This document shows positions 16,872-36,739 of a stretch of 36,739 bases of DNA, piece by piece. How positions within the stretch are numbered: the stretch's first letter is position 1; each line of letters starts with the position of its first letter. The stretch comes from an uncultured Akkermansia sp. (GTDB lineage: Bacteria; Verrucomicrobiota; Verrucomicrobiia; Verrucomicrobiales; Akkermansiaceae): the NCBI GenBank assembly GCA_947629715.1, contig CANRET010000016.1, forward strand, positions 1-36,739, written 5' to 3'. The translations under genes were made by a program, and so were the position numbers. The notes beneath the pieces are model-generated. The model was not told where the DNA came from, made no database searches, and saw nothing but the letters and a program-made list of their open reading frames with translations.

Positions 16872-19800
16872 ATGATGAGAAAGGCGTACACATACACAGT
16901 AAGCAACAGTTCTCCCTCCAGGCAGGCACCGCAGTACAAAGTGCGTGGGAAAGGGGGAACGACCGGGGAACTCAGGGTGACGTATAAGCATGACTACCCT
17001 GCGTACCCGACGAATGTGTTGAACAGTCCTCGAAGACAAGTAAGAGCGTGTGGAGGAGGGGCATCTGGAATCTCAGACGTTCGCGTGGAGGGGAGTGTCC
17101 GAGATTCCGGGGCAATTACGATGGGCGGAAAAACGCTGAGATCCGTGGCCGTGGCGCGTGGCGGCGAGGGAGGAGAGATATTTGACGGGGGCTTTAAGTT
17201 ACCCGATGGACTCTACGGACTTGCTTTGCAGCAATACTTGAGGGATTGTGATGAGGGACAGCAAGGTTCATATTTTGACGCGACTCTGTCAGATGTCGAG
17301 GAGGTGGAGACTGAACCGGAAGATAATGAGGAAGAGGAAGAGGAGGAGACATGTGATGAATGTGACGAGGGGTGCGAATCCAGTGATGGTGGAGGTTCGG
17401 CGCAAGCCAGATCAAGCATTGGACGTGTGATGCTGCGTGCCGACGGAAGAGGAGAGAGTACATCGGGAGGAAGCGCAGCAGTGCGGTATTCATCGGCGAA
17501 GCGGATGAAATGGTCGGTTCAGTTTGGTGTGTTTCGAGGATTGTCGGGTGTGCCGGCGGGGAGGTTGCAGATAGCAAAACAACGGGAATACGAGGCGAAA
17601 CTCGGTCGGGTGGATGGGTTGGCCTATGCTCATCCTCTGGCGGCAACTCTTGAGGTGCCGGAAGGGGGAGTGAAGAACGGTGAAATGGTAGCTCTTTGTC
17701 GAGGGAGCGGACGCCTCAACTACATGCTGGATGCATCGGGAGTTGCCTTTTTCCCGGTGGGCGCTTCCCAGCAAACAAAGACTGTCCTGGCGCCGGTGAA
17801 GAAGATGAGCCGTGCGGCGGAAGACGCATGCGCGTTGAGTGAGGCGAACTACATTCGCGCTTCCTACACGGACGGATCAGCCGCCTTCTTTGACTTGAAG
17901 AATGGGCAGAGCATGGGATTCATTAGTTCCGAAGGCAAGGAACTGAACAGCGAGCAGGCGCTGCAATATCTCAACATCATGCGCGATGAAGGAGGAACAA
18001 TTCGGCAAATTTGGAATGCATGGGATGGATTGGCGGACATTGTGGAAGTTGATGAGAATGACCCGTCAGCGGGGTACAGCATCCGAATTTATCCGCCGGC
18101 GCAGGTGGAGGAACCCTCGGGAGAAGGGGAACTTTTCACCGCAACCGGGGAGCCGGTGCGCGTTTTTACGGTGCGAGGAAATGATGAGGAATACTCTCTG
18201 CGCATCGCTGAGCGAGATATGACCCTGCCGGAGAGTATGGGGGAGTACGTCACCACGTGGAAATGGGCGCACGAGGCGTGGAGTCAGACGACAGGGGAAG
18301 GAGCGGAAGCGGTGGAGAAGCATCGCGAGGCGGCGCAGCTGGATGAGACGCATTACAGCGTTGTGGAAAGCCTGCGCAAGAATGACGTCGAAGCTCTCCG
18401 CACCTATGAGGAATACGAGGAGGGAATCACGGGCAACCTGCTCAGGAAGCGCATCGTGGGATACGAGCATGCGGGGGCACGCACCACGACCTATGAGTAC
18501 AACGATATGGGTCAGCTCATTAAAACGGTGGACCCCGGAGGCGGCGTTTCTGAAAATGTCTATGATCCGCAGGGGCGTCCCACGGTGCAAAGTTCACCAT
18601 GGCGGGAGACCGACGTGCAGAATTACCACACGGAGTATCGCAGTGACAAGGATGTTTACAGCACGGAGCCGATCAGGACGGAGCACACGTACGATAAACC
18701 CGGAGAGGTGGGCATTGCGCTGACGGAGGAATACACCTATACGGAGCAGAATCATGTCAAACGCGTTGAGAAGCGTACGCGGTGCGAAGCTAACACTCTT
18801 CTCTCCGTGAAAGAAACGTGGCTGGCCGATGCACCGGGGGAATTTGCCGCCGGAAGGATCAAGATGGAGCAGGCGGCTGACGGCACGCAGACTCATTACA
18901 GCTACGCTGCAGCGGTAGGAAAGTACAACGCCCTCTACAGCGTTACAGCTGAGGTGCGGGATGAAGAAGGTAAACTCGTTGTCGGGCAGAGCACGCGGCG
19001 CGTGAGCTACGTCACGGAGGAGGGCAACACCGTACGCGAGGAAAGCTATGTGCTGGCAGCGGAAGATCATTGGCAGCTCACCAATGGCGCCACCATGGAG
19101 TACGATGTGCTCAATCGCCGCATAGCCACGCGCTGGGACAATGGGAGGAGTGAGTCCCAGGTGCTTACCTGCCAGGGTGAGCCGCTTCGTCGGGTGAATG
19201 CCGATGGCGTGGTGACCACCTACGCGTATGACAGTGCGAGGCAGCTTATTGAAACCACGCGCAGCGCCGTGTACGATGGCGATATTTGCATCACCCCGGA
19301 AATCATCACTGAGTACGAGCGGGACGCCGCCGGGCATGCGCTGAAAACGACGGAGCGCATCGGGGCTCTCACACGCAGTACGAGTATGCGCTACGACCTG
19401 CAGGGGCGTGTTATTGAGCAGACCGACGCCTTGGGGCGCATCACTTCCTTCGCATACAGTGAAGATGGCCTCACCACCACGGTCACCACCCCGGGCGGGG
19501 CGGAACAGATTACACGGCACAACCCCGATGGGACCATTGCCGAGGAAAGCGGCAGCGGGCAACGTCATTTGCTCTATGCGTATGACTACGCTTGGGGCAT
19601 TCGCCGCACCACGTTCCTGCCGGATGGGGTGACCAAAGTTCAGGTGCGCACGGTCAACGCGCTCAACCAGCGCGTGCTGCTGCGCGAGGCCACTTCGCTG
19701 GGGAACGCCACGATGCTCGACACGCGCCGCACCTACAATGCCAAGGGTCAACTGGTGCGCGAAAAAGTGGGCCCTCTCGCTCCCACGACCTTTGCCTACG

Positions 19801-22640
19801 ACGGCATGGGCGCCCTCAGTTGCCGCACCACGCTTCTCGCGGAGAGTGAAGCGGATGATCCCACAAAGAACCGCATCAGCAAGTTCCAATATTCTTTCGA
19901 AGTTGGAGATGATGACTCAGTGTACCGTGTGACCACAATGGAGCGCAGCAACGTGGCAGGAGAATGGCTTACGAGTGTGCAGCGCGAGCTTATTTCCCAA
20001 CTCTCTCCTGCTACGGAGAGCAAAACCGCTGTCACAGATGAGTATGGCAAGACGACCACGACGTGGACAGATTACGGCAGCGGCACACAGCGCATTGAGC
20101 ATCGACAGATTCCAACGAGCAGCATCATCGCTGAGGCGATCATCTGGGATGGCTTTGTCACTTCCGACAGGGACAACGTTGGCATCGAAAACCGTTTCAC
20201 GCGTCATTACGGGGATAGAGGCGTTACTTTCACCGCAACGGATGGGCGCGGCAACACAACCACCACAACGACGGATATCATTGAGAGAACGATCAAGACG
20301 GAGAACGCTGCCGGCAATACGACGACCACCGAATACTGCCCGTGGAACAACGAGCCTGCTGTCATCACGGACGCACTGGGCTTTACCGCCTGCGCAGAAT
20401 ACGATTCCCGCAACCGCAAAGTGGCAGAGTTTGGTACGGGAGTGCAACCGGTCGTGTACGAGTATGATGATGCAAACCGTCTGGTAGCCACGACCACGTG
20501 GCGGGATGCTCAGCAGGTGATTGCCACCGACCCCCGCGGCATGGAGGGCGGCGACATCACGCGGTGGGAGTACGATGACGCTTCCGGACTCGAGCTGAAA
20601 AAGATTTATGCGGATGGCCAGGGGAATACAATGACTTACAATAACGCAAACCGCCCTGCCACTCTTCTCAACGCACGAGGCGTGCTCACCACGTACGCAT
20701 ACAACAGTTCTCTGGGCGTGGTGAACAAAATCACCTATTCGGACGCTCCGGACGCCACGCTGACCGTCCGCTACAACATAGCGGGCAAACCCTTGCAGAT
20801 CAAGGATGCGGCAGGCACTCACACATTCACATACAATCGTTATGACCTCCAGGAGACAGAATCCCGGGCGGTAGATGGCGCCAAGTTCACCCTGCAAGAG
20901 GCTTACGATGAATACGGTCGCAGCGTCGGCTTCTCCCTGCTGAAAGGTGGCAGTGCGGTACACACTGTTAGTACCGGCTATGCACAAGATGGGCGCATCG
21001 CCACAGCAGGTTTCCGCCATGCCAATTCGGATCGCACGTGCCACTTTGCTTATCTGGCGGGCAGCAACCTTCTCGCTCAGCTCACCCTTTCCAACGGCAT
21101 GACGCTCTCTCAAACCTGGGAGGAAAAGCGGGATCTGCTCACGGAGATGAACTACATGCGCGGCGGCACGCTCGTTACCTCCCGTAGCTACGAATACGAC
21201 CCCCTCGCTCGTCCCACTTCGCGCGGCACCTATTACCCCGGCAAACAGCATCTGAAACTCATCGCCAGCTTCGGCTATAACGATCGCTCAGAACTCACCG
21301 CCGCTAAGCTCGATGCTTCCCCCTACGCCTACGCCTACGACAACGTCGGTAACCGCATCTCTGCCCGGGAGGACACCGAACAAATCACCTACGAAGCCAA
21401 TAAGCTGAATCAATACACGCTCATCAAGACGAATGGCGCCGATTTCATCCCTGACTTCGATGCGGATGGCAATCAGACTCTCATCCAAACTTCCACCGGT
21501 ATCTGGCACGTCACTTACAACGCTCAAAACCGCGCCACTCGCTACGAAAGCGCGGATGGCTCCACCATCATCACCTGCGTCTATGACTACATGGGGCGGC
21601 GCGTGCGCAAGCAGGTGGTCAAGGATGGCGTCACCACGCTTGACGATCGTTTCTTTTACCGTGGATACTTGCAGGTGGCTGCCTATGACTGGCTTCCCGC
21701 CACGAAGACTTCTCGCTGCTTTCTCGTCTGGGATCCCACTCAATCTGTCGCGACGCGTCCGCTGGCCATCCGTACCGGCGGCACGGCCTACGCCTATGGT
21801 TGGGACTTGACGAAGAACATCTGCGAGCTCTACGGTCCCAACGGTTACATTGTCAACCGCTACGCTTACACTCCATTCGGCAGCGTTACCCAAACTGAGG
21901 GTTCGGTCAATCAACCTTTCACTTGGAGCAGCGAATACCTCGACTCCGATCTCGCCCTTGTCTATTACAACTTCCGCTACTACAACCCGTGTGATGGTAG
22001 ATGGACGCGGAGGGATCCGATAGGAGAAAGAGCTTCTTATTCAGCCTATGGAAATGCTGCTCCTTTTGTTGTGGATATCCTTGGTTTGTACGCGGTTCTC
22101 TGTTTTGCCTACGATGCAGGCAAAATCATTGCAGTTGACAGGGATAATCCAACTGATCAGATCGAAGTAGACAATGTTTTTTCTGGCAATGGCGATGATA
22201 TCAATAATCCCAATTCACAACACCTAGAAGATCGTGGCCCCATTCCAGAGGGAGTATATTGGATCGGCGAACAACGCGTTGTACATGGTCGTGAAAGGTG
22301 GAGACGCTTGTACGGCGATGATGGAAAAGGAGGAAAATCATATACCGATGTCCAGGTGTATGATCCAAATACGAGACAAAGAATAACCAGAGGAGGTCTT
22401 AATTTACATGTGGGTACCCGCAGTAATGGATGTGTAACAGTAACTTCTGAGATTCCCGAGGGGAGCCCAGGGTATCCACAGAGTGGAGATTATGACAGAC
22501 TAAACAATTTTATAGAACAAAAGGGTAAGCAGACACCTTTTCATAATCCACGCAGATATAAAGACACGTATCACGGCGTTATGGTGGTTGTCAGGTGCGA
22601 GAAACAATGTGAAAAAGCAATAGAAAATCTGATATCATGA
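16872..22640 (+). CDS. RHS-repeat polymorphic toxin with L,D-transpeptidase-like (Tlde1/DUF2778-like) C-terminal tip
   Basis: The 1922-residue protein lacks a recognisable signal peptide or PAAR domain. Its first ~500 residues are unassigned and include an acid/Cys run (EEEEEETCDECDEGCE, near residue 160). From about residue 530 to 1720 it is a long RHS/YD-repeat shell (TTTYEYNDMGQLIKTVDPGG; YAYDNVGNRISA; LVYYNFRYYNPCDGRW). The core ends near residue 1738 at the DILGLY hinge. The ~180-residue tip holds GPIPEGVYWIG and LHVGTRSNGCVTV, with H1846 and C1854 placed like the catalytic pair of L,D-transpeptidases and Tlde1 toxins, which attack peptidoglycan. The tip is visibly more AT-rich than the core. 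The next gene overlaps it by ATGA. Delivery route is not encoded here. Confidence 0.9.
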   Translation: MMRKAYTYTVSNSSPSRQAPQYKVRGKGGTTGELRVTYKHDYPAYPTNVLNSPRRQVRACGGGASGISDVRVEGSVRDSGAITMGGKTLRSVAVARGGEGGEIFDGGFKLPDGLYGLALQQYLRDCDEGQQGSYFDATLSDVEEVETEPEDNEEEEEEETCDECDEGCESSDGGGSAQARSSIGRVMLRADGRGESTSGGSAAVRYSSAKRMKWSVQFGVFRGLSGVPAGRLQIAKQREYEAKLGRVDGLAYAHPLAATLEVPEGGVKNGEMVALCRGSGRLNYMLDASGVAFFPVGASQQTKTVLAPVKKMSRAAEDACALSEANYIRASYTDGSAAFFDLKNGQSMGFISSEGKELNSEQALQYLNIMRDEGGTIRQIWNAWDGLADIVEVDENDPSAGYSIRIYPPAQVEEPSGEGELFTATGEPVRVFTVRGNDEEYSLRIAERDMTLPESMGEYVTTWKWAHEAWSQTTGEGAEAVEKHREAAQLDETHYSVVESLRKNDVEALRTYEEYEEGITGNLLRKRIVGYEHAGARTTTYEYNDMGQLIKTVDPGGGVSENVYDPQGRPTVQSSPWRETDVQNYHTEYRSDKDVYSTEPIRTEHTYDKPGEVGIALTEEYTYTEQNHVKRVEKRTRCEANTLLSVKETWLADAPGEFAAGRIKMEQAADGTQTHYSYAAAVGKYNALYSVTAEVRDEEGKLVVGQSTRRVSYVTEEGNTVREESYVLAAEDHWQLTNGATMEYDVLNRRIATRWDNGRSESQVLTCQGEPLRRVNADGVVTTYAYDSARQLIETTRSAVYDGDICITPEIITEYERDAAGHALKTTERIGALTRSTSMRYDLQGRVIEQTDALGRITSFAYSEDGLTTTVTTPGGAEQITRHNPDGTIAEESGSGQRHLLYAYDYAWGIRRTTFLPDGVTKVQVRTVNALNQRVLLREATSLGNATMLDTRRTYNAKGQLVREKVGPLAPTTFAYDGMGALSCRTTLLAESEADDPTKNRISKFQYSFEVGDDDSVYRVTTMERSNVAGEWLTSVQRELISQLSPATESKTAVTDEYGKTTTTWTDYGSGTQRIEHRQIPTSSIIAEAIIWDGFVTSDRDNVGIENRFTRHYGDRGVTFTATDGRGNTTTTTTDIIERTIKTENAAGNTTTTEYCPWNNEPAVITDALGFTACAEYDSRNRKVAEFGTGVQPVVYEYDDANRLVATTTWRDAQQVIATDPRGMEGGDITRWEYDDASGLELKKIYADGQGNTMTYNNANRPATLLNARGVLTTYAYNSSLGVVNKITYSDAPDATLTVRYNIAGKPLQIKDAAGTHTFTYNRYDLQETESRAVDGAKFTLQEAYDEYGRSVGFSLLKGGSAVHTVSTGYAQDGRIATAGFRHANSDRTCHFAYLAGSNLLAQLTLSNGMTLSQTWEEKRDLLTEMNYMRGGTLVTSRSYEYDPLARPTSRGTYYPGKQHLKLIASFGYNDRSELTAAKLDASPYAYAYDNVGNRISAREDTEQITYEANKLNQYTLIKTNGADFIPDFDADGNQTLIQTSTGIWHVTYNAQNRATRYESADGSTIITCVYDYMGRRVRKQVVKDGVTTLDDRFFYRGYLQVAAYDWLPATKTSRCFLVWDPTQSVATRPLAIRTGGTAYAYGWDLTKNICELYGPNGYIVNRYAYTPFGSVTQTEGSVNQPFTWSSEYLDSDLALVYYNFRYYNPCDGRWTRRDPIGERASYSAYGNAAPFVVDILGLYAVLCFAYDAGKIIAVDRDNPTDQIEVDNVFSGNGDDINNPNSQHLEDRGPIPEGVYWIGEQRVVHGRERWRRLYGDDGKGGKSYTDVQVYDPNTRQRITRGGLNLHVGTRSNGCVTVTSEIPEGSPGYPQSGDYDRLNNFIEQKGKQTPFHNPRRYKDTYHGVMVVVRCEKQCEKAIENLIS
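21509..21934 (+). repeat. RHS-core direct repeat, copy 1
   Basis: These 426 bp are identical, base for base by eye, to 28169-28594, at an offset of exactly 6660. Upstream the two copies differ only by scattered substitutions; downstream they diverge sharply four bases into the codon run after WSSE. The identity suggests recent gene conversion or tip exchange. Confidence 0.93.
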
Positions 22641-23491
22641 AAATCATCGTTCACCTCGTTACTTTTATCTTATTTGTCATGGTAATGTTCGATATGGCTA
22701 AGGCAACGGAGCAACTCACGCCAAGTGCAGAGCTTGTGCAGAGATTGGTACAGATAGCGGTCGCCAAGGACGAGGTTGGAGAAGCCGTGAGCAAAGGCAA
22801 GGACAACATAGAATTATCAGATATCCGCAGGGGGTTGGAAGAAGAAGGGTATGCAGAAGTTGAGAAAGTTATTGAAAGAGAGGGCGACGTTCGAACTCTC
22901 TATGTGGCCATCGTTTCGTTGTATGAGGAATTTAATCTCATGGAAAACGTACACGACAGAATCTTGTTTGAAGCAAGAGAGCTTCTGGAAATACAACTTG
23001 CCAAACAAGGAACGGAAGAAGCTTATCGATATTTCATGCGTTTGAAGCCCCATTACGGGCACGATGGCGCCGGATCGACTCATTACGGACTCATGGAGTT
23101 GCGATACCTGAAGAAATACTCTCAAATTCCAAAAGTTTTGCTGGAATTGAGTGATGAAAAAGCGAGCATCGGAGAGCTTGAGGCACTGCTTGCTTTGGCG
23201 CGTATGTACGCGGATGGACAGATCCCAAACGCCAGATATAAGCATCTTTATACGGCAGTTGTCGTGGCCGCACTTAAAAGGGGGAATGCGTGTGCAAAAC
23301 GAATAGTGGCAAAATGGCACACGAAAGCAGCCGAGCAAAATGATGTGGAGACGATGATGCTTTTGGCTGATATGTATATGAATGATGAATTCCGGCTTCA
23401 AGATCTTGAGAAGGGAGTGTATTGGTTGAAGAAAGCGGCGGCAGCTGGTGACCAAGAAGCGAAAGAGAAGCTGATGCGCTTCGAAAAATGA
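22637..23491 (+). CDS. Exported Sel1-repeat protein, probable immunity protein for the RHS tip
   Basis: The 284-residue product begins with a signal peptide (MKIIVHLVTFILFVMVMF...AKA), so it should act outside the cytoplasm. The middle is helical and unassigned; the last ~75 residues contain Sel1-like repeats (AEQNDVETMMLLADMYMNDE, KGVYWLKKAAAAGDQEAKEK). Its ATG sits inside the RHS stop (ATGA, 4-nt overlap), the usual arrangement for a toxin and its immunity protein. A periplasmic protein fits a peptidoglycan-attacking tip. The C-terminal repeat closely matches the third repeat type of the Sel1 protein downstream. A shortened copy occurs at 35338. Confidence 0.82.
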   Translation: MKIIVHLVTFILFVMVMFDMAKATEQLTPSAELVQRLVQIAVAKDEVGEAVSKGKDNIELSDIRRGLEEEGYAEVEKVIEREGDVRTLYVAIVSLYEEFNLMENVHDRILFEARELLEIQLAKQGTEEAYRYFMRLKPHYGHDGAGSTHYGLMELRYLKKYSQIPKVLLELSDEKASIGELEALLALARMYADGQIPNARYKHLYTAVVVAALKRGNACAKRIVAKWHTKAAEQNDVETMMLLADMYMNDEFRLQDLEKGVYWLKKAAAAGDQEAKEKLMRFEK

Positions 23492-23650
23492 GCAGAACAA
23501 GAAAGAGTATTCCGGAAAAATATGAAGAAGATGAAGGAAAAACTGGCAAGAAGGTCAAAACTGGGGCAGAGTGACGACGAATCAATGATGTCAAAACGTC
23601 CCGGTAGTGTTTCACCTCCAATTTCACGAGAAGTTCTTACCACAAACACC

Positions 23651-26077
23651 ATGAAAACAATTCTTATTTCCTTTCTCTTCTTCTCTCTCATAGGTTTGGT
23701 TGCAGGGGAGGATTTGCAGAAATTGCCGCTGACTGAGCTGGAACAGCAGGCGCAGGCAGGAGGAGCGGAGGCGCAGGCCGAGTTGGCGTACAGGTATGCG
23801 AACGGGGAAGGAACAGAAAAAAATTATGAAAAGGCGTTTGATTTAGCTAAAAAAGCGGCAGAGAAAGGGAATATAAAAGGTATGAGGGTGCTGGGCGGTC
23901 TTTATTTGGTAGGAGTGGGAGGGGCAGACAAAGATGAACAGAAAGGGGCAAAATTGATACAACAGGCGGCAGAAGCAGGTGATGAAATGGCGCAAATGAA
24001 ATTAGGAGTGATGCTTTATGTAGGAATGGGAATCCAAGTCGATAAAAAAGAAGCCGCATATTGGCTTCAGAAAGCGGCCAATCAAGGGAATGTCGAGAGC
24101 AAGACGAAGCTAGGCATCATGTACCTCAAAGGGGAAGGCGTGACGAAAGATCAGACGAGGGGAGTGTCACTTATACGGGAGGCAGAGGAGGCCGGGAGCG
24201 CAGAAGCAAGGGGAGTTATAGGCGTCATGTACCTCAAAGGGGAAGGCGTAGAGAAGGATGAGCAGAAAGGCTTGTCGCTGGTACGAGAAGCGGCAGAGGC
24301 TGGAGACGCACAAGCGCAGAGAAATCTCGCTATCGAGTACATGAATGGGGAAGTTGTGAGAAAGGGTGCAAAGAAGGCCGTCGAATGGTTGACGAAAGCG
24401 GCAGAACAAGATTACGCAGAAGCGATGAGGCTTTTGGCGAGAATGTATATGGGTGATGAATATGGGATTCAGGATTCTGTGAAGGGTATCTATTGGCTGA
24501 AGAGAGCGGCAGAGGAGGGGAACGCTGAGGCAAAGGGAGTTCTAGGCGTCATGTACCTCAAAGGGGAAGGCATTGCGAAAGATGAGGAGAAGGGATTATC
24601 ACTTACGCGAGAGGCAGCGGAAGCCGGGGACGCGGAGGCGCAGAGAAATCTCGCCGTTGTGTACTTGAATGGGGTCATTGTGGAAAAGGATGCAAAGAAG
24701 GCAATCGAATGGTTTACGAAAGCGACCGAACAAGGAGATGCAGCGGCGAGGGGGAGCCTCGGAGTCATGTACCTCAAAGGGGAGGGCGTAGAGAAGGATG
24801 AGGAGAAGGGGATGGCGCTTGTGCGGGATGCAGCGGAGGCGGGGGACGCCAGAGCAAGGAGGCAGCTTGGTTTCATGTACCTTCAAGAGGATAGCGTAGA
24901 GAAGGATGAGAGAAAGGGTTTGTCACTTTTACAGGATGCAGCGGCGGCAGGAGACGCGGAAGCGAGGGGATATCTTGGCGCCATGTATATCAATGGAGAA
25001 GGCGAGGCGAAGGATGAGGAGAAAGGCTTGTCGTTGGTTCGGAAGGCAGCGGATGCCGGAGACGCGCAATCACAGAGGAATCTCGCTGTTATATACAGGA
25101 ACGGAGAAATTGTGGAAAGGGATGCAGAAAAGGCAGTTGAATGGTTGACGAAAGCGGCCGAGCAGGATCACGTAGAAGCGATGAGGCTTTTAGCTGACAT
25201 GTACGGGAGCGATGAATATGGGATTAAGGACCCCGAGAAGGAAGTGTATTGGTTGAAGAGAGCAGCGGAGGTCGGAGACGCTGAAGCGAGGGGAAATCTT
25301 GGCGTCATGTATATCAATGGAGAAGGTGTGGCAAAGGATGAGGAGAAAGGCTTGTCGCTGGTTCGGGAGGCAGCAGAGGCAGGGGACGCAAAAGCTCAGA
25401 GGAATCTCGCTGTTATGTACAGGAACGGAGACATTGTGGAAAAGGATGCAGAAAAGGCAGTCGAATGGTTTACAGAAGCGGCCGAGCAGGAGCACGTGGA
25501 AGCGATGATGCTTTTGGTTGACATGTATATGAGTGATGAATATGGCATTCAGGATTCCGAGAAGGGTATCTATTGGCTGAAGAGAGCGGCAGAGGCCGGA
25601 GACGCGGAAGCAAGGGGAAATCTTGGCGCCATGTATATCAATGGAGAAAGCGTAGAGAAGGATGAGGAGAAAGGCTTGTCGCTGGTTCGGGAGGCGGCAG
25701 AGGCAGGAGACGCGCACTCACAGAGGAATCTCGCTGTTATGTACAGGAACGGAGACATTGTGGAAAAGGATGCAGAAAAGGCAGTTGAATGGTTGACGAA
25801 AGCGGCCGAACAGGATCACGTGGAAGCGATGATGCTTTTGGCGAGAATGTATTTAGACGATGAATACGAAATGAGGCAGCCTGAGAAGGCAGTGTATTGG
25901 CTGAGGAAAGCCGCCGAACAGGGAGATGCAGGAGCTCAATACTGTTTAGGGTTGCTTTACCTGAAGGGGATAGGAGTGTCGAAGGACAAGTTTGAGGCTT
26001 CTCGGTGGTTTGAAAAAGCGGCGGCGGCCGGAGACCAAGAAGCGAAAGAGATATTAAAAGCTTTCGATGGGAATTGA
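23651..26077 (+). CDS. Exported Sel1-repeat (SLR) protein, 21 repeats
   Basis: From ATG 23651 the protein has 808 residues: a signal peptide (MKTILISFLFFSLIGLVAG), a short linker (EDLQKLPLTELEQQAQAGG), then 21 full 36/37-residue Sel1-like repeats and a partial one. I chose this start because it gives a clean signal peptide; the frame is open 43 codons further upstream. Sel1 repeats form alpha-solenoids used for protein binding. Repeats 5-20 alternate in three types, giving a 108-residue (324-bp) higher-order period. The same leader occurs at 32985 and 35943. Being exported and next to an immunity-like gene, it may be a second immunity or scaffold protein; no partner can be read from sequence. 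Confidence 0.88.
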   Translation: MKTILISFLFFSLIGLVAGEDLQKLPLTELEQQAQAGGAEAQAELAYRYANGEGTEKNYEKAFDLAKKAAEKGNIKGMRVLGGLYLVGVGGADKDEQKGAKLIQQAAEAGDEMAQMKLGVMLYVGMGIQVDKKEAAYWLQKAANQGNVESKTKLGIMYLKGEGVTKDQTRGVSLIREAEEAGSAEARGVIGVMYLKGEGVEKDEQKGLSLVREAAEAGDAQAQRNLAIEYMNGEVVRKGAKKAVEWLTKAAEQDYAEAMRLLARMYMGDEYGIQDSVKGIYWLKRAAEEGNAEAKGVLGVMYLKGEGIAKDEEKGLSLTREAAEAGDAEAQRNLAVVYLNGVIVEKDAKKAIEWFTKATEQGDAAARGSLGVMYLKGEGVEKDEEKGMALVRDAAEAGDARARRQLGFMYLQEDSVEKDERKGLSLLQDAAAAGDAEARGYLGAMYINGEGEAKDEEKGLSLVRKAADAGDAQSQRNLAVIYRNGEIVERDAEKAVEWLTKAAEQDHVEAMRLLADMYGSDEYGIKDPEKEVYWLKRAAEVGDAEARGNLGVMYINGEGVAKDEEKGLSLVREAAEAGDAKAQRNLAVMYRNGDIVEKDAEKAVEWFTEAAEQEHVEAMMLLVDMYMSDEYGIQDSEKGIYWLKRAAEAGDAEARGNLGAMYINGESVEKDEEKGLSLVREAAEAGDAHSQRNLAVMYRNGDIVEKDAEKAVEWLTKAAEQDHVEAMMLLARMYLDDEYEMRQPEKAVYWLRKAAEQGDAGAQYCLGLLYLKGIGVSKDKFEASRWFEKAAAAGDQEAKEILKAFDGN
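24200..25927 (+). repeat. Sel1 coding repeats with 324-bp higher-order period
   Basis: Sixteen 108-bp units (repeats 5-20 of the protein) fall into types A (MYLKGEGV...KGLSLVREA), B (RNLAVMYRNG...AVEWLTKAAEQ) and C (LLADMYMSDEYGIQD). The order is ABC AB AAAB C ABC ABC, so full triplets recur. For example, the ATG of MYINGE is at 25307 and again at 25631, exactly 324 bp apart, with near-identical DNA between. This is a substrate for repeat-number change. Confidence 0.85.
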
Positions 26078-26115
26078 GCGGTTAGGGAAAAGAGAAGACG
26101 GCAAGGATTATTGGG

Positions 26116-26922
26116 ATGATGGAAAATGATAAAACGTTATTCGTGTATATGAGAAAGAAACAAAAGGAGATAGACATGAAGCTCGCGCTTATTAAAAACG
26201 CTGGGGAGTTGGTGGTGCACACAGAAATTTCACCAAATGAAATGGGGACTGAAAAAACAGTTGCGCATCATGCTTGCAGCAATTTCCGTAGCGGTATGCG
26301 CGATGCCAGGTGGACGAGAAGTGATCCGGCAGGGATGCCTTCTTCATTAAACATCTATGCATATGCAAACAACAGTATAGATATTGATTTCCTCGGACTT
26401 TCTCTTATACCTCGTCACACGCCTATTACATCCATTACTGTTAAACGTAAGAGTATCAAGTGGGTATCGATCATTTTGGAAGACGTACTGAAATCTTCCA
26501 AGACTAGACCCGGAGGAGGAGACACCTATGGACACTGGTGGATAGAATTTGGGGATGAAAGTTATGGATGGTGGCCGAAATATGCTGTTAGTTCATTAGG
26601 AGAGACGGTTTTCGGGGTCGAAGGTCAATTAAATGGTATGGATGACGATGCAAATCCTACGAGGGACGCAGATCATGGTGATTTGGCAGACTATGAATTT
26701 CATCCCATGTTATATGTGGGCAACGTATCCTCCACCTATATGCAGTATGGAGCAGGGAGAGAGAAAAAATGTACTTGCGTCAATGAGGAAGAAATTAAAG
26801 ATTGCCTGCGCACATTCGCAAGATCATATACCGGCACTTGGAGTTATCCATTTGGACAGAATTGTCATTCGTTTCAAACTGAAATGATGGATATGTGCTG
26901 CCTTAGAGCCCCACGTTTTTAA
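26116..26922 (+). CDS. Displaced RHS C-terminal toxin tip, permuted papain-fold-like
   Basis: The 268-residue frame is a chimera. Residues 1-60 derive from a leader sequence also found at 30087 but read here in another frame. Residues 62-95 are the end of an RHS core (RDARWTRSDPAG, NIYAYANNSIDIDFLGLS). The rest is a toxin-like domain with GHWWIEFGDESYGWWP (H140) and PFGQNCHSFQTEMM (C250). The order His then a C-terminal NC-H/F motif recalls circularly permuted papain folds (LRAT, PPPDE/DeSI, YiiX-type NlpC/P60). It has neither an RHS shell nor a signal peptide, so it is probably a silent or donor tip. A lipoprotein gene follows 64 bp later. The start codon is uncertain; expression is unproven. 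Confidence 0.7.
   Translation: MMENDKTLFVYMRKKQKEIDMKLALIKNAGELVVHTEISPNEMGTEKTVAHHACSNFRSGMRDARWTRSDPAGMPSSLNIYAYANNSIDIDFLGLSLIPRHTPITSITVKRKSIKWVSIILEDVLKSSKTRPGGGDTYGHWWIEFGDESYGWWPKYAVSSLGETVFGVEGQLNGMDDDANPTRDADHGDLADYEFHPMLYVGNVSSTYMQYGAGREKKCTCVNEEEIKDCLRTFARSYTGTWSYPFGQNCHSFQTEMMDMCCLRAPRF
26119..26310 (+). repeat. Duplicated leader segment, copy 1
   Basis: About 190 bp closely match 30087-30275. In the other copy the segment encodes the signal peptide of an exported protein (RIMLAAISVAVSASQA). Here one extra T (CTTATTAAAAAC against CTTATAAAAAC) shifts the frame. The similarity ends where RHS-core sequence begins, so 26303-26310 marks a recombination seam. Confidence 0.82.
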
Positions 26923-26986
26923 TGCCTTATCAAGCAATACACTCCATGAGCACGGCAGAATGAACTATTGACTGATCTTATACAGT

Positions 26987-27595
26987 ATGAAAAACATAAG
27001 GATGAACAAGAATGTAAGAGCTTTGATTATAATTACAATATTGCTTCTGAATCTTTTTTCTTGTGAAACAAAATCTCAGCCTCATATGGATTATTCTCAA
27101 TTTCAACTGATGTATTCGTACGGACAGCCTCTTCCGGCTGGAGATAGAAAGTATTATAAAATATTAAAATATTTATCCGCGCAATGGGCGCTAAGTCTCA
27201 AAGTGCGTCACTATGTATATTTTCACAACGGGGATTATTATGTATTCCACCGTTATCCTGTTACCGATAGAAGGGCGGGATATCCCACAATTATTTCGGA
27301 GGATGAAGCAGAGAGAATGATGGCGACGAATTTCCCTTTTGAAATGGATTATTCTCAATTTCAACTGGTGTATTCATACAAATTTTATTCTCGAAAAGGA
27401 GATAAGAAGTATCATAAAATAATAAAATATTTAGAGTCACGGGGCAGGACCAGTTGGCGTAGGGATAACTATATATATTTTTATGATGGATATTATTACA
27501 TATTCCGCAACTTCCCTGTTACTGGTAAAAAAGTATTACCTCCCATAACTATTTCAAAAGATCGAGCAGAAGAGATCATGGCAGCGAATCCGTAG
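26987..27595 (+). CDS. Lipoprotein with internal duplication, candidate immunity protein
   Basis: The 202-residue product has a signal with lipobox (LLLNLFSC, Cys at about 26), so it should be lipid-anchored outside the cytoplasm. The mature part consists of two similar halves, each opening with MDYSQFQLxYSY and containing KYY/HKIxKYL, a YxYFxxGxYYxF stretch, FPVT/YPVT and a final SxDxAExxMA. The halves cover about residues 34-112 and 119-201. I do not recognise the family. Its place directly after a displaced toxin tip suggests it is the cognate immunity protein; the base composition is very AT-rich, unlike the RHS core. The second Met (27002) is an alternative start. Confidence 0.72.
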   Translation: MKNIRMNKNVRALIIITILLLNLFSCETKSQPHMDYSQFQLMYSYGQPLPAGDRKYYKILKYLSAQWALSLKVRHYVYFHNGDYYVFHRYPVTDRRAGYPTIISEDEAERMMATNFPFEMDYSQFQLVYSYKFYSRKGDKKYHKIIKYLESRGRTSWRRDNYIYFYDGYYYIFRNFPVTGKKVLPPITISKDRAEEIMAANP

Positions 27596-27668
27596 CGAAG
27601 CGGTCGATTACTAAATTACTAAGCAAGATGTGTGAATCGTAAGAATAGAGGTAATAGGAGAAAGATAG

Positions 27669-29303
27669 ATGGAGAGTCTCAGCTCAAGCTACAAAGCTAA
27701 ACGCGACCTGCTCACGGAGATGCTCTACACACGGCTCAATGATGTGAGGAAGAAGGTGGAGGTGACGCGCCGCGGGTATGCGTACGATGCGCTGAGGCGC
27801 CCGACTTCCCGCACGCAGGTTTACCCACCACAGCAGAAGTTTGCGCGAGAGGATCCCTTCGACTATAACAGGCGCTCTGAAAGCGCCCGACGGCTGGCAG
27901 GGCGATTGGACAGAAGCGCAGCTTTTGCCCCGGAGGGGCGAGGTCGAGTCAACTCACCGGTGCGAAGCTCGGGGAGGCTCCTTATGCCTATTCCTACGGA
28001 CAACATCGGCAACCGCATCACGGCCCAGGAGGATGCTGAGAGTGTCACTTACGAAACCAATGAGCTGAATCAATACACGCTTATCAAGACGAATGGCGCC
28101 GATTTCACCCCTGACTTCGACGCGGATGGCAATCAGACCCTCATCCAAACTTCCACCGGTATCTGGCGCGTCACTTACAACGCTCAAAACCGCGCCACTC
28201 GCTACGAAAGCGCGGATGGCTCCACCATCATCACCTGCGTCTATGACTACATGGGGCGGCGCGTGCGCAAGCAGGTGGTCAAGGATGGCGTCACCACGCT
28301 TGACGATCGTTTCTTTTACCGTGGATACTTGCAGGTGGCTGCCTATGACTGGCTTCCCGCCACGAAGACTTCTCGCTGCTTTCTCGTCTGGGATCCCACT
28401 CAATCTGTCGCGACGCGTCCGCTGGCCATCCGTACCGGCGGCACGGCCTACGCCTATGGTTGGGACTTGACGAAGAACATCTGCGAGCTCTACGGTCCCA
28501 ACGGTTACATTGTCAACCGCTACGCTTACACTCCATTCGGCAGCGTTACCCAAACTGAGGGTTCGGTCAATCAACCTTTCACTTGGAGCAGCGAGGCGTA
28601 TGATGAAGAGCTGGGGCTCGTGTACTACAACTTCCGGTATTACAACCCGTGCGATGGCAGGTGGATGCGGAGAGAGCCGGGGATGGAATACTTCTCCATT
28701 AATCTCTACGCGTTTGCCTTAAATAACACCATGACATATCATGATGTATTGGGATTCTGGAATGATGGGAGTTATGGTGACGAAAACGCTGCTTATAAAG
28801 ACCGAGGGCATAGTGATTTTCCGGGTCAGGGTATGTTTGATTACACAAAAGAAGATAATGATCTTAGTACAAGCCCTTTTAATCCGGCATCTACATGGCG
28901 GCATTTTCGGGATTTACCAGAAGTTGAGGATGAATTACTTGATGCGGTCAAAGAATGCGATAAAGGGAAATATGAAAGTAGGGCACACCAAATGCAAGAC
29001 TATTTCTCCCACTACAAACAGGGGTTCGAAAGCTCCCCTCTCTTGCCCTTGTATATAATAATTTCCTTTATTCCTGGCCTTGTTAGTTGGGTTCTGAGTG
29101 GACATGCAATAGAAACGCGTGTACAACGAATTACACACCAGGGAAAAAAGCCTGATAATCCAGAAGATTATCGGGAAGACTATGAAGCCGCAAAAGAACG
29201 TACGCAAGCTTGGTTGGATTTGTGGTCAAAATGCTGTAAACAAGTAGGAGGACAATGGGAACGCGATAATTGCACAGATTGCAGTCATATAGATATTCCA
29301 TAA
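27669..29303 (+). CDS. Truncated RHS protein with HxxxDxxxH (phospholipase C/nuclease-like) tip
   Basis: The 544-residue frame starts at an ATG with a well-placed AGGAG (27656-27660). Residues 1-335 are the last part of an RHS core (KRDLLTEMLY..., DNIGNRITA, LVYYNFRYYNPCDGRW), matching the full RHS gene; residues ~71-110 are foreign, from a GC-rich insertion read out of the original frame. The tip starts after TMTYHDVLGF (about 362). It contains RAHQMQDYFSHY, giving H440-D444-H448, the HxxxD pattern of zinc phospholipase C/P1-nuclease-type folds. A hydrophobic segment (PLYIIISFIPGLVSWVLSG, 460-478) and a Cys-rich end (CCK, NCTDC) follow. With no signal or shell, it is probably a displaced tip. 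Confidence 0.8.
   Translation: MESLSSSYKAKRDLLTEMLYTRLNDVRKKVEVTRRGYAYDALRRPTSRTQVYPPQQKFAREDPFDYNRRSESARRLAGRLDRSAAFAPEGRGRVNSPVRSSGRLLMPIPTDNIGNRITAQEDAESVTYETNELNQYTLIKTNGADFTPDFDADGNQTLIQTSTGIWRVTYNAQNRATRYESADGSTIITCVYDYMGRRVRKQVVKDGVTTLDDRFFYRGYLQVAAYDWLPATKTSRCFLVWDPTQSVATRPLAIRTGGTAYAYGWDLTKNICELYGPNGYIVNRYAYTPFGSVTQTEGSVNQPFTWSSEAYDEELGLVYYNFRYYNPCDGRWMRREPGMEYFSINLYAFALNNTMTYHDVLGFWNDGSYGDENAAYKDRGHSDFPGQGMFDYTKEDNDLSTSPFNPASTWRHFRDLPEVEDELLDAVKECDKGKYESRAHQMQDYFSHYKQGFESSPLLPLYIIISFIPGLVSWVLSGHAIETRVQRITHQGKKPDNPEDYREDYEAAKERTQAWLDLWSKCCKQVGGQWERDNCTDCSHIDIP
27882..27952 (+). repeat. GC-rich palindromic insertion inside RHS core
   Basis: Compared with the full RHS gene, about 71 bp are inserted between the codons for SE and LT. 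The insert region contains two hairpins: GGCGCT/AGCGCC spanning its left edge, and GCCCC-GGA-GGGGC at 27927-27939. One extra G at 27998/27999 brings the total to +72, so the frame is restored. It looks like an interspersed REP-like element; only one copy is seen here. Confidence 0.6.
28169..28594 (+). repeat. RHS-core direct repeat, copy 2
   Basis: This segment is identical over 426 bp to 21509-21934 of the full RHS gene. It ends just before the variable tip, the position expected for homologous exchange of toxin tips. Confidence 0.93.
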
Positions 29304-29325
29304 TAGTAAAACCAACAACGTTAAA

Positions 29326-29997
29326 ATGTACAGTCTGTTGATAGATAACCCAAGAGTGTATGAGTGCATTTTTTTTCTTTACTGCACGGTCATATGTCCA
29401 TTGATTCTTTTTATTCATCTGCTGACCTGCCGGATTAAGAACAGGGACCTCCCCCTACCGGTGCTTCTACTTGGTCTGTTTGCTCCCGATTTTACCTACT
29501 TGCCCTGGGTGCTATGTGTCTGTTTTCTGAGCACAATCGGGTGGATACAGGATCAAATGCCGTCGTTAGTTGAGTCAAGTTGGGGTCCCGTATTCGTCAC
29601 TTGTACGGCTATCCCGATCTTTTTACCCCTATGGAAGAGGTCTCGCTTTTGTACGGCAGTAGCTCTTCATCGGCTCATGCAAGTAGCCGCTATCATATAT
29701 GGTTTTTTCCCCTTGAGTCAATGGAATGGTCATGGGAGCGACGAAGTCCTGCTGGTCTCCACTGTAGGAGGTGGATGTATTGCACAAGTATCCGGGATTG
29801 GGGCAATTTTAGTGGCGTATTTCTTGAATCCCGTTGTCACGCGTACTATTCGGGCGAGACGACTCAATAAGGTATCGCGGTTTCCATTGATGTCGCTCAA
29901 GAAGAAAATATATAAGGCTGTGCCCTTACTCTACATCTTGTCGCCTTTCATCCTCATCGGGATCATCTACGCTATGAGACTTTTATGGACACCGTGA
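29326..29997 (+). CDS. Polytopic membrane protein, candidate immunity protein
   Basis: The 223-residue protein has about six hydrophobic segments (for example FFLYCTVICPLILFIHLL, LPVLLLGLFAPDFTYLP, GPVFVTCTAIPIFLPLW, AVPLLYILSPFILIGIIY) with basic loops between. It belongs to no family I recognise. It begins 22 bp after the HxxxDxxxH tip gene, so it is the natural immunity candidate. An integral membrane immunity protein would suit a toxin that acts in or at the membrane. The ATG has no strong ribosome binding site, which suggests translation coupled to the upstream gene. Confidence 0.7.
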   Translation: MYSLLIDNPRVYECIFFLYCTVICPLILFIHLLTCRIKNRDLPLPVLLLGLFAPDFTYLPWVLCVCFLSTIGWIQDQMPSLVESSWGPVFVTCTAIPIFLPLWKRSRFCTAVALHRLMQVAAIIYGFFPLSQWNGHGSDEVLLVSTVGGGCIAQVSGIGAILVAYFLNPVVTRTIRARRLNKVSRFPLMSLKKKIYKAVPLLYILSPFILIGIIYAMRLLWTP

Positions 29998-35337: not shown

Positions 35338-35865
35338 ATGAATTTTATGATTACCTATCCTCCAATGAGGAACGGGATGATTGGCACAGGTTTGCTCCTA
35401 ATGTTCGATATGGCTAAGGCAAAGGAGCAACTCACATTGAGTGATGAAAAAGCAAGGATCGGAGAGCTTGAGGCACTGCTTGCCTTGGCGCGTACGTACG
35501 CGGATGGACAGAGCCAAAGCGCCAGATGTAAGCATCTTTATACGGCAGTTGTCGTGGCCGCGCTTGAAAAGGGGAATGCGTGTGCAAAGCGAATAGTGGC
35601 AGAATGGCACACGAAAGCAGCCGAGCAAAATGATGTGGAGGCGATGATGCTTTTGGCTGATATGTATATGAATGATGAATTCCGGTTTCAAGATCTTGAG
35701 AAGGGAGTGTATTGGTTGAAGAAAGCGGCGGCAGCTGGTGACCAAGAAGCGAAAGAGAAGCTGAAGCGCTTCGAAAAAAGAGCAAAAGAAGAAAGAGCCT
35801 TCCGAGGAAAAAATGAAGAAGATGGAGAAAAAACTGGCAAGAAGGTCAAAACTGGGGTAAAGTGA
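35338..35865 (+). CDS. Internally deleted copy of the Sel1 immunity-like gene
   Basis: From MFDMAKAKEQLT onward the protein repeats the gene at 22637, but about 142 residues (equivalent to 22720-23147) are missing. MFDMAKAKEQLT joins directly to SDEKARIGELEALLALARTYADG. The C-terminal Sel1 part is nearly the same, then a 30-residue Lys/Glu tail (KRAKEERAFRGKNEEDGEKT) replaces the stop, because the equivalent of TGA at 23489 is AGA here. The N-terminus is new (MNFMITYPPMRNGMIGTG) with no convincing signal peptide, so export is doubtful. The start is uncertain (TTG 35305 and ATG 35401 are possible). It is probably an orphan or decayed immunity gene. Confidence 0.66.
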   Translation: MNFMITYPPMRNGMIGTGLLLMFDMAKAKEQLTLSDEKARIGELEALLALARTYADGQSQSARCKHLYTAVVVAALEKGNACAKRIVAEWHTKAAEQNDVEAMMLLADMYMNDEFRFQDLEKGVYWLKKAAAAGDQEAKEKLKRFEKRAKEERAFRGKNEEDGEKTGKKVKTGVK

Positions 35866-35942
35866 CGATGAATCAATGATGTCAAAACGCTCCGGAAGTG
35901 TTTTCACCTCCAATCTTACGAGAAGTTTTTACCACAAATACC

Positions 35943-36739
35943 ATGAAAAAAATTCTTATCTCATTTTTCTTCTTCTCCCTCATAGGCCTGACGGCAGGAG
36001 AGGATTTACAGAAATTGCCGCTGCCTGAGCTGGAACAGCAGGCGGAGGCAGGAGGAGCGGAGGCGCAGACCGAGTTAGCGCGCAGGTATGCGTACGGGGA
36101 AGGAGTACCGCAGGACTATGATAAGTGCTATAAGCTGGCTGTTCAGGCGGCTGAGAAAGGAAATGCGCGGGCGATGCGGATGATTTCCACTTGTTATGCG
36201 CACGGCATCGGTGGAGTGGAAAGGGATATGCAAAAGGCATTGGAATGGACCAAGCGTGCTGCTGACGCGGGAGATATTGTTTCCTTGGGCAATATTGGAG
36301 CGATGTATTATCAGGGCATGGGGGTAGAGCGAGACGAGAAAAAGGGGCTCCAAATGCTTGAGCAAGCGGCAGGGGCAGGAGATGCAGGCGCAAAGAGTAA
36401 CTTGGCTGTTATATACCTCAAAGGGATGGGCGTGACGAAGGATCAGAAGAAGGGAGTGTCACTTTTGAGGGAGGCGGCGGATGCCGGAAGCGTTACGGCA
36501 AAGGGCGTTCTAGGCGTCATGTACCTCAAAGGGGAAGGTGTGGCGAAAGATGAGGAGAAAGGCTTGCCGCTTGTGCGAGAGGCGGCAGAGGCAGGAGACG
36601 CGCAGGCACAAGTTAATCTTGGATATGCGTACGAGCACGGAATTGGGGGGCGAAAGGATATAACGAAAGCGTTTGAATGGTGGGAAGAGGCAGCCAAACG
36701 TGGAAATGTTGAAGCGCAGATCAACTTGGCCAAAATGTA
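35943..36739 (+). CDS. Exported Sel1-repeat protein, 3'-truncated by window edge
   Basis: An open frame of 265 codons runs off the right edge. It begins with a signal peptide (MKKILISFFFFSLIGLTAG) and EDLQKLPLPELEQQAEAGG, then Sel1 repeats (AQTELARRYAYGEGVPQDYD; VSLGNIGAMYYQGMGVERDE; VLGVMYLKGEGVAKDEEKG). Leader and upstream DNA match 23574-23760, so this is the second copy of the immunity-like/Sel1 pair. After the leader the first repeats differ from the first copy (VPQDYDKCYKLAVQAAEKGN), so the genes have diverged or recombined. Its function is as uncertain as that of the first copy. Confidence 0.85.
   Translation, partial: MKKILISFFFFSLIGLTAGEDLQKLPLPELEQQAEAGGAEAQTELARRYAYGEGVPQDYDKCYKLAVQAAEKGNARAMRMISTCYAHGIGGVERDMQKALEWTKRAADAGDIVSLGNIGAMYYQGMGVERDEKKGLQMLEQAAGAGDAGAKSNLAVIYLKGMGVTKDQKKGVSLLREAADAGSVTAKGVLGVMYLKGEGVAKDEEKGLPLVREAAEAGDAQAQVNLGYAYEHGIGGRKDITKAFEWWEEAAKRGNVEAQINLAKM

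Follow-up and report, generated by a model that had tools for sequence, protein, structure and literature searches.

What is the C-terminal tip of an RHS polymorphic toxin directed at in Akkermansia, and which protein protects the producer from it? The question is raised by a locus in an uncultured Akkermansia sp., where the gene of a large RHS protein overlaps a gene whose product is predicted to be exported. Bacteria of Akkermansia and related groups are prominent in the gut; our literature search found no study on their RHS weapons. The window, by which we mean the whole stretch of DNA analysed (36,739 nucleotides), comes from a genome of 2.2 Mb, assembled in 116 contigs and 97.6% complete (G000); the toxin and immunity genes with their domains, the neighbouring Sel1 gene and the two repeats described below lie on its forward strand. 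We read the locus as an antibacterial RHS toxin-immunity pair, whose tip, a Tlde1-family enzyme of L,D-transpeptidase fold, would act in the periplasm and be blocked by the product of the overlapping gene. We give this reading a probability of roughly 0.78. The pair is a concrete, testable candidate for a cell-wall-targeting toxin with an unnamed immunity family.

The open frame at 16872-22640 encodes 1922 residues. Its RHS repeats and RHS core are genuine by profile search, with matches to PF05593 (4e-21), TIGR01643 and TIGR03696 (8.7e-13). The protein has the make-up of an RHS polymorphic toxin, namely repeats, a conserved core end, a variable C-terminal tip and a linked downstream gene for its putative immunity protein, and the same RHS core carries differing tips, both within the window and in relatives. 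Neither an N-terminal signal peptide (by reading) nor a PAAR domain (by Pfam scan) was recognised in it.

The tip itself, residues 1740-1922 (22089-22637), starts past the DxxGL motif that closes the RHS core, a limit drawn from the sequence and from an AlphaFold2 model. An earlier note on this DNA had taken it for an L,D-transpeptidase-like domain of the Tlde1/DUF2778 kind, and both profile and fold bear this out. Against the isolated C-terminal end, PF10908 (Tlde1_dom, formerly DUF2778) scored 51.6 bits (1.6e-13), above its curated cut-off of 30.1; against the full protein of 1922 residues, it matched residues 1768-1884 (22173-22523) at 4e-12. The AlphaFold2 model of residues 1737-1922, computed from an alignment of 14 sequences, was confident (pLDDT 90.4, pTM 0.87), and the PDB matches listed for it in a fold search were all L,D-transpeptidase-fold enzymes. 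Best-scoring were the L,D-carboxypeptidases Pgp2 (6xj6, Z 13.1) and Csd6 (4xzz, Z 11.4). Salmonella Tlde1a (7uo3) was also among the best matches, with a Z of 10.8 and an rmsd of 2.6 over 123 residues, at 20% identity. Since the Foldseek E-values were just ~1e-3, weight was placed on the uniformity of the match list and on the PF10908 profile match. A model made from 6 sequences had a pLDDT of 46 and an empty fold search, and was left unused; pLDDT reached 90 once phage-borne relatives were added. Searches of PDB sequences with single-sequence phmmer and with an 8-sequence profile of the tip found no true match, so that it was the fold search alone that tied the tip to the Tlde1a structure. 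A tblastn search of phage records had no hit, and no relatives came up in three viral_contigs scans. Profile and model together place the tip in the Tlde1/DUF2778 family, as an enzyme with the L,D-transpeptidase fold.

The two motifs quoted for the tip are in place, GPIPEGVYWIG from residue 1789 and LHVGTRSNGCVTV from residue 1845, with His at 1846 and Cys at 1854. The predicted catalytic residues, within 22407-22433, are His1846 (22407-22409), Ser1851 (22422-22424) and Cys1854 (22431-22433), all invariant in the alignment of 14 tip homologues, in which W, R, H, G, S, G and C are kept throughout. As in PF10908, a catalytic His and Cys are found, with a Ser ahead of x-G-C. The counterparts in Tlde1a are R115, H121, S128 and C131 (PMC9638812), the Arg of the tip standing 6 residues before its His, and the Ser 3 residues before its Cys. 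At the position of Tlde1a H129, the second His of (S/T)HGC, the tip has an Asn. This residue is E, D, L, A, K or N in the other family members read and, being so variable, the second His does not define PF10908. In Tlde1a, the H129A variant still exchanges D-amino acids but has lost most of its cross-linking and some of its carboxypeptidase activity, and is no longer toxic (PMC9638812). By analogy, given its Asn, the present tip may be inclined to exchange or trimming activity.

That His and Cys lie 8 apart had been taken as a possible mark of a new subfamily. We found the same spacing in Akkermansia, in other verrucomicrobial members, in Oscillatoria (cyanobacterial) and in several phage-borne Tlde1 members, while Ensifer-type members have 10 and a Rahnella member has 11. 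A spacing of 8 is thus ordinary within the family, and a subfamily defined by it was rejected.

The stop codon of the toxin gene overlaps, by ATGA, the next open frame (22637-23491), which encodes 284 residues. The product begins with a plain predicted signal peptide, MKIIVHLVTFILFVMVMFDMAKA followed by TEQ (residues 1-23, 22637-22705), recognised by reading of the sequence and positive in a hydrophobicity test. Overlap and signal peptide had both been reported in the earlier note, in agreement with the open frames and the N-terminal sequence. The signal peptide is followed by a conserved domain (22706-23158) with the motif AREL..L.A..GTxEAYxYF..LK..YG, common to the Sel1-free relatives. The C-terminal part contains a single Sel1 repeat (PF08238; residues 239-272, 23351-23452), which at 31.1 bits is barely above the cut-off of 30.7, and which is missing from the homologues of G028, G003, G087, G073 and G076. 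PDB sequences searched with a profile of the immunity domain gave no convincing match.

G008 and G028 also have this gene linked to the tip. Of the intact copies of the locus that we found, the nearest lies on a contig of 61,374 bases in G008 (uncultured Akkermansia sp., isolate Lapin-001__bin7), with a tip 92% and a partner 96% identical. The pair in G028, of the Akkermansiaceae, is diverged (tip ~49%, partner ~32% identical), and its partner is an exported protein of 170 residues, the homology of which is limited to residues ~28-165. In G026, the tip has been reduced by recombination to its last 60 residues, and the partner is whole and 98% identical. The partner domain also stands alone in G003, G087, G076 and G073, and at a second locus of G028; with the exception of G028, these genomes have no Tlde1 tip. 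Retention of the pair in G008 and G028, the stand-alone copies, and survival beside the truncated G026 tip together show the pattern typical of an immunity gene; this, most probably, is the role of the overlapping exported gene towards the tip. It is possible that the orphan copies are retained as defence. The stand-alone GTxEAY domains L034, L035, L036 and L138 (in G003, G087 and G028) adjoin ordinary genes and are candidates for acquired defence; one of these copies, in G028:C37, is interrupted by stops.

We propose that the Tlde1-family enzyme serves as an exchangeable C-terminal tip on the RHS shell, and that it would be released into the periplasm of a neighbouring cell. There, Cys1854, activated by His1846, would attack peptidoglycan stem peptides at the bond that joins residues 3 and 4 (mDAP-D-Ala). 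Tetrapeptide trimming and/or D-amino-acid exchange would follow, causing normal cross-linking to fail. The 22637 product would be soluble in the periplasm and block the tip. The part most likely to do this is the N-terminal domain (residues ~28-165), to which the Sel1 part would be an added module.

The proposal that the Sel1 protein neutralises the tip, made in the earlier note, stood as far as the gene is concerned, the exported overlapping gene behaving as an immunity gene, but found no support for the Sel1 repeat as its active part. That the Sel1 part binds and neutralises the tip, with the N-terminal domain as a spacer, would fit the fact that Sel1 repeats bind proteins, and a large Sel1 protein is encoded downstream of the pair. 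The Klebsiella effector VgrG4 also has a Sel1 immunity protein (PMC7108748). However, the diverged tip of G028 is accompanied by the 170-residue homologue of the N-terminal domain, without Sel1, and N-terminal domains stand alone without Sel1 elsewhere, so that this domain alone is retained. Moreover, the Sel1 part is found separately at 35399-36104 of the window, and in G094, which carries residues 167-284 of the partner alone, at 88% identity. We hold a neutralising Sel1 part to be quite unlikely; the repeat is probably not what protects, and since it is a separate module, a better name would be GTxEAY-domain immunity with a Sel1 extension. It is improbable, too, that the 22637 gene is unrelated to immunity and encodes a Sel1-family protein serving some separate function. 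N-terminal-domain relatives do occur away from RHS genes, adjoining ordinary genes, but the ATGA overlap with the toxin, the conservation of the pair despite divergence of the tip to ~49%, and the persistence of the gene beside the truncated tip of G026 argue otherwise. We give least credit to the explanation that the pair is a non-functional orphan, decaying within a recombining array, with neither tip nor partner still active. The array is rich in fragments, copies of the tip are truncated in G026 and G008:C37 and interrupted by a stop in G059, and evolution has been faster in the tip than in the RHS core (dN/dS 0.75 versus 0.20, with few changes counted). Nevertheless, the window copy is full length, all its catalytic positions are kept, and the entire RHS frame is open.

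Another reading takes the tip for a Tlde1 effector sent by a type VI secretion system (T6SS), as in Salmonella. TssC was present in 13 of 76 genomes of the genus, including G008 (C9, C82), which has the nearest pair, and G026, which has the tip remnant and an intact immunity gene. In contrast, neither TssC nor TssK was found in the genome of the window, at its 97.6% completeness and in 116 contigs, and both were likewise missing from two closed genomes with Tlde1-RHS tips, G059 (its tip has an internal stop) and G067. The RHS protein, moreover, has no recognised PAAR domain. We found no study describing a T6SS of Akkermansia-like genomes in the literature. Secretion of the tip by a T6SS appears unlikely, and the delivery route in the strain of the window is probably a different one. 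The pair raises the question of how RHS toxins exit from cells without a T6SS.

Several known systems resemble the locus in part. The Tlde1/Tldi1 pair of Salmonella is alike in PF10908 and fold, in the active-site W, R, H, S and C, and in its exported partner. Tlde1, however, is a small free T6SS effector, whereas here the enzyme is the tip of an RHS protein, in a genome without T6SS markers. Tlde1a differs from the tip by its His-Cys spacing of 10 instead of 8 and by H129 in place of Asn, and the Tldi1 gene lies upstream of Tlde1 (PMC10434147), whereas the immunity gene lies downstream here. The RHS toxins with Tox-LD-peptidase tips (Zhang et al. 2012, PMC3482391) share the RHS repeats, the C-terminal L,D-peptidase and the linked immunity gene, and an attack of these tips on the cell wall was proposed in 2012 by comparative genomics (PMC3482391). 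Their listed spread is without Verrucomicrobia, whereas the present tip is verrucomicrobial. Their partners are Imm16 and Imm57 (PMC3482391), whereas ours has an unnamed domain, with or without Sel1; for our partner, the Pfam scan named neither Imm16 nor Imm57. Sel1E of Klebsiella VgrG4 (PMC7108748) is likewise a Sel1-repeat protein encoded next to an effector, but its toxin is different, and in our partner conservation lies outside the Sel1 repeat. Finally, Csd6 (4xzz) and Pgp2 (6xj6), in spite of their top structural scores, are housekeeping cell-shape enzymes with 12-14% identity to the tip, no RHS and no immunity gene. The locus is of the kind predicted in 2012, in a lineage unlisted there and with the T6SS apparently absent. 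RHS L,D-peptidase tips with linked immunity genes (PMC3482391) and Sel1 immunity proteins (PMC7108748) are already known; new are the unnamed immunity family, the modular way in which Sel1 is fused to it, and the excess, across the genus, of RHS partners that are exported.

This excess became apparent from the genes downstream of other RHS tips. Downstream of the Tlde1-RHS tips in another clade (G008:C57, G059, G067, G093) lies a membrane protein of ~110 residues; the tip of G051 is followed by a lipoprotein of 121 residues, and that of Oscillatoria by a WG-repeat lipoprotein, also with a 4-base overlap. These partner types look unrelated to one another. Every one of them is either exported or bound to the membrane, which is what one would expect of a tip that acts in the periplasm. 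In Akkermansia genomes, an export-like N-terminus, defined by a hydrophobicity rule rather than by a signal-peptide program, was found in 23 of 32 ORFs downstream of RHS genes, against 52 of 202 (26%) in the background (Fisher p 7e-7, a value that overstates independence, as several of the 32 ORFs are homologous pairs). Further Akkermansia cases were export-like in 6/6, and those of the more distant G051 in 7/13. By this rule, export is a general trait of RHS partners in the genus, beyond Tlde1 tips. Since exported partners follow most RHS tips of the genus, the fact that the partner is exported tells less about this tip than it appears to.

The effectors to which Rhs repeats are fused usually act in the cytoplasm (PMC12994826), in contrast with the exported partners seen in Akkermansia, which suggest an arsenal directed at the periplasm. 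More tentatively, and at somewhat less than even odds, the RHS proteins of Akkermansia-like bacteria would form a T6SS-independent arsenal against the periplasm of rivals, and the GTxEAY domain a mobile periplasmic immunity module, alone or fused to Sel1. This takes in metallopeptidase-like and papain-like tips in addition to the Tlde1 tip; proteobacterial Rhs tips are mostly cytoplasmic. Signal peptides, lipoboxes or membrane segments were read after most RHS tips of G059, G067, G008, G025, G026 and G028, and in the window at 21867-28754. The N-terminal region of an RHS toxin of G067 (L040) contains a very long serine run.

The surroundings of the pair contain repeated segments. Within the window, there is a partial second copy of the immunity gene at 35399-35865, lacking the N-terminal domain: segments 22683-22719 and 23146-23812 are repeated as adjoining blocks at 35399-36104, 92-97% identical, with just that domain missing. 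The end of the RHS core (21292-22019) is repeated at 27951-28679 with 92% identity, inside an orphan RHS fragment (27669-29303) that has another tip, and this repeat offers material for tip exchange. The fragment with its different tip is followed by a multi-pass membrane protein (27669-29997). Beside the pair, 23522-26077 encodes a Sel1-repeat protein of 851 residues, with 21 Sel1 stretches and a signal-peptide-like stretch at an internal start, the repeats of which are 63% identical to residues 224-279 of the immunity protein. In G008:C8 and G026:C71, too, the immunity gene has a large Sel1 gene downstream. Further on, the region 26116-27595 holds an orphan RHS tip of 268 residues with a papain/NlpC-like look (HWWIEFG ... 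NCHSF) and, downstream of it, a lipoprotein of two similar halves, probably another toxin-immunity cassette.
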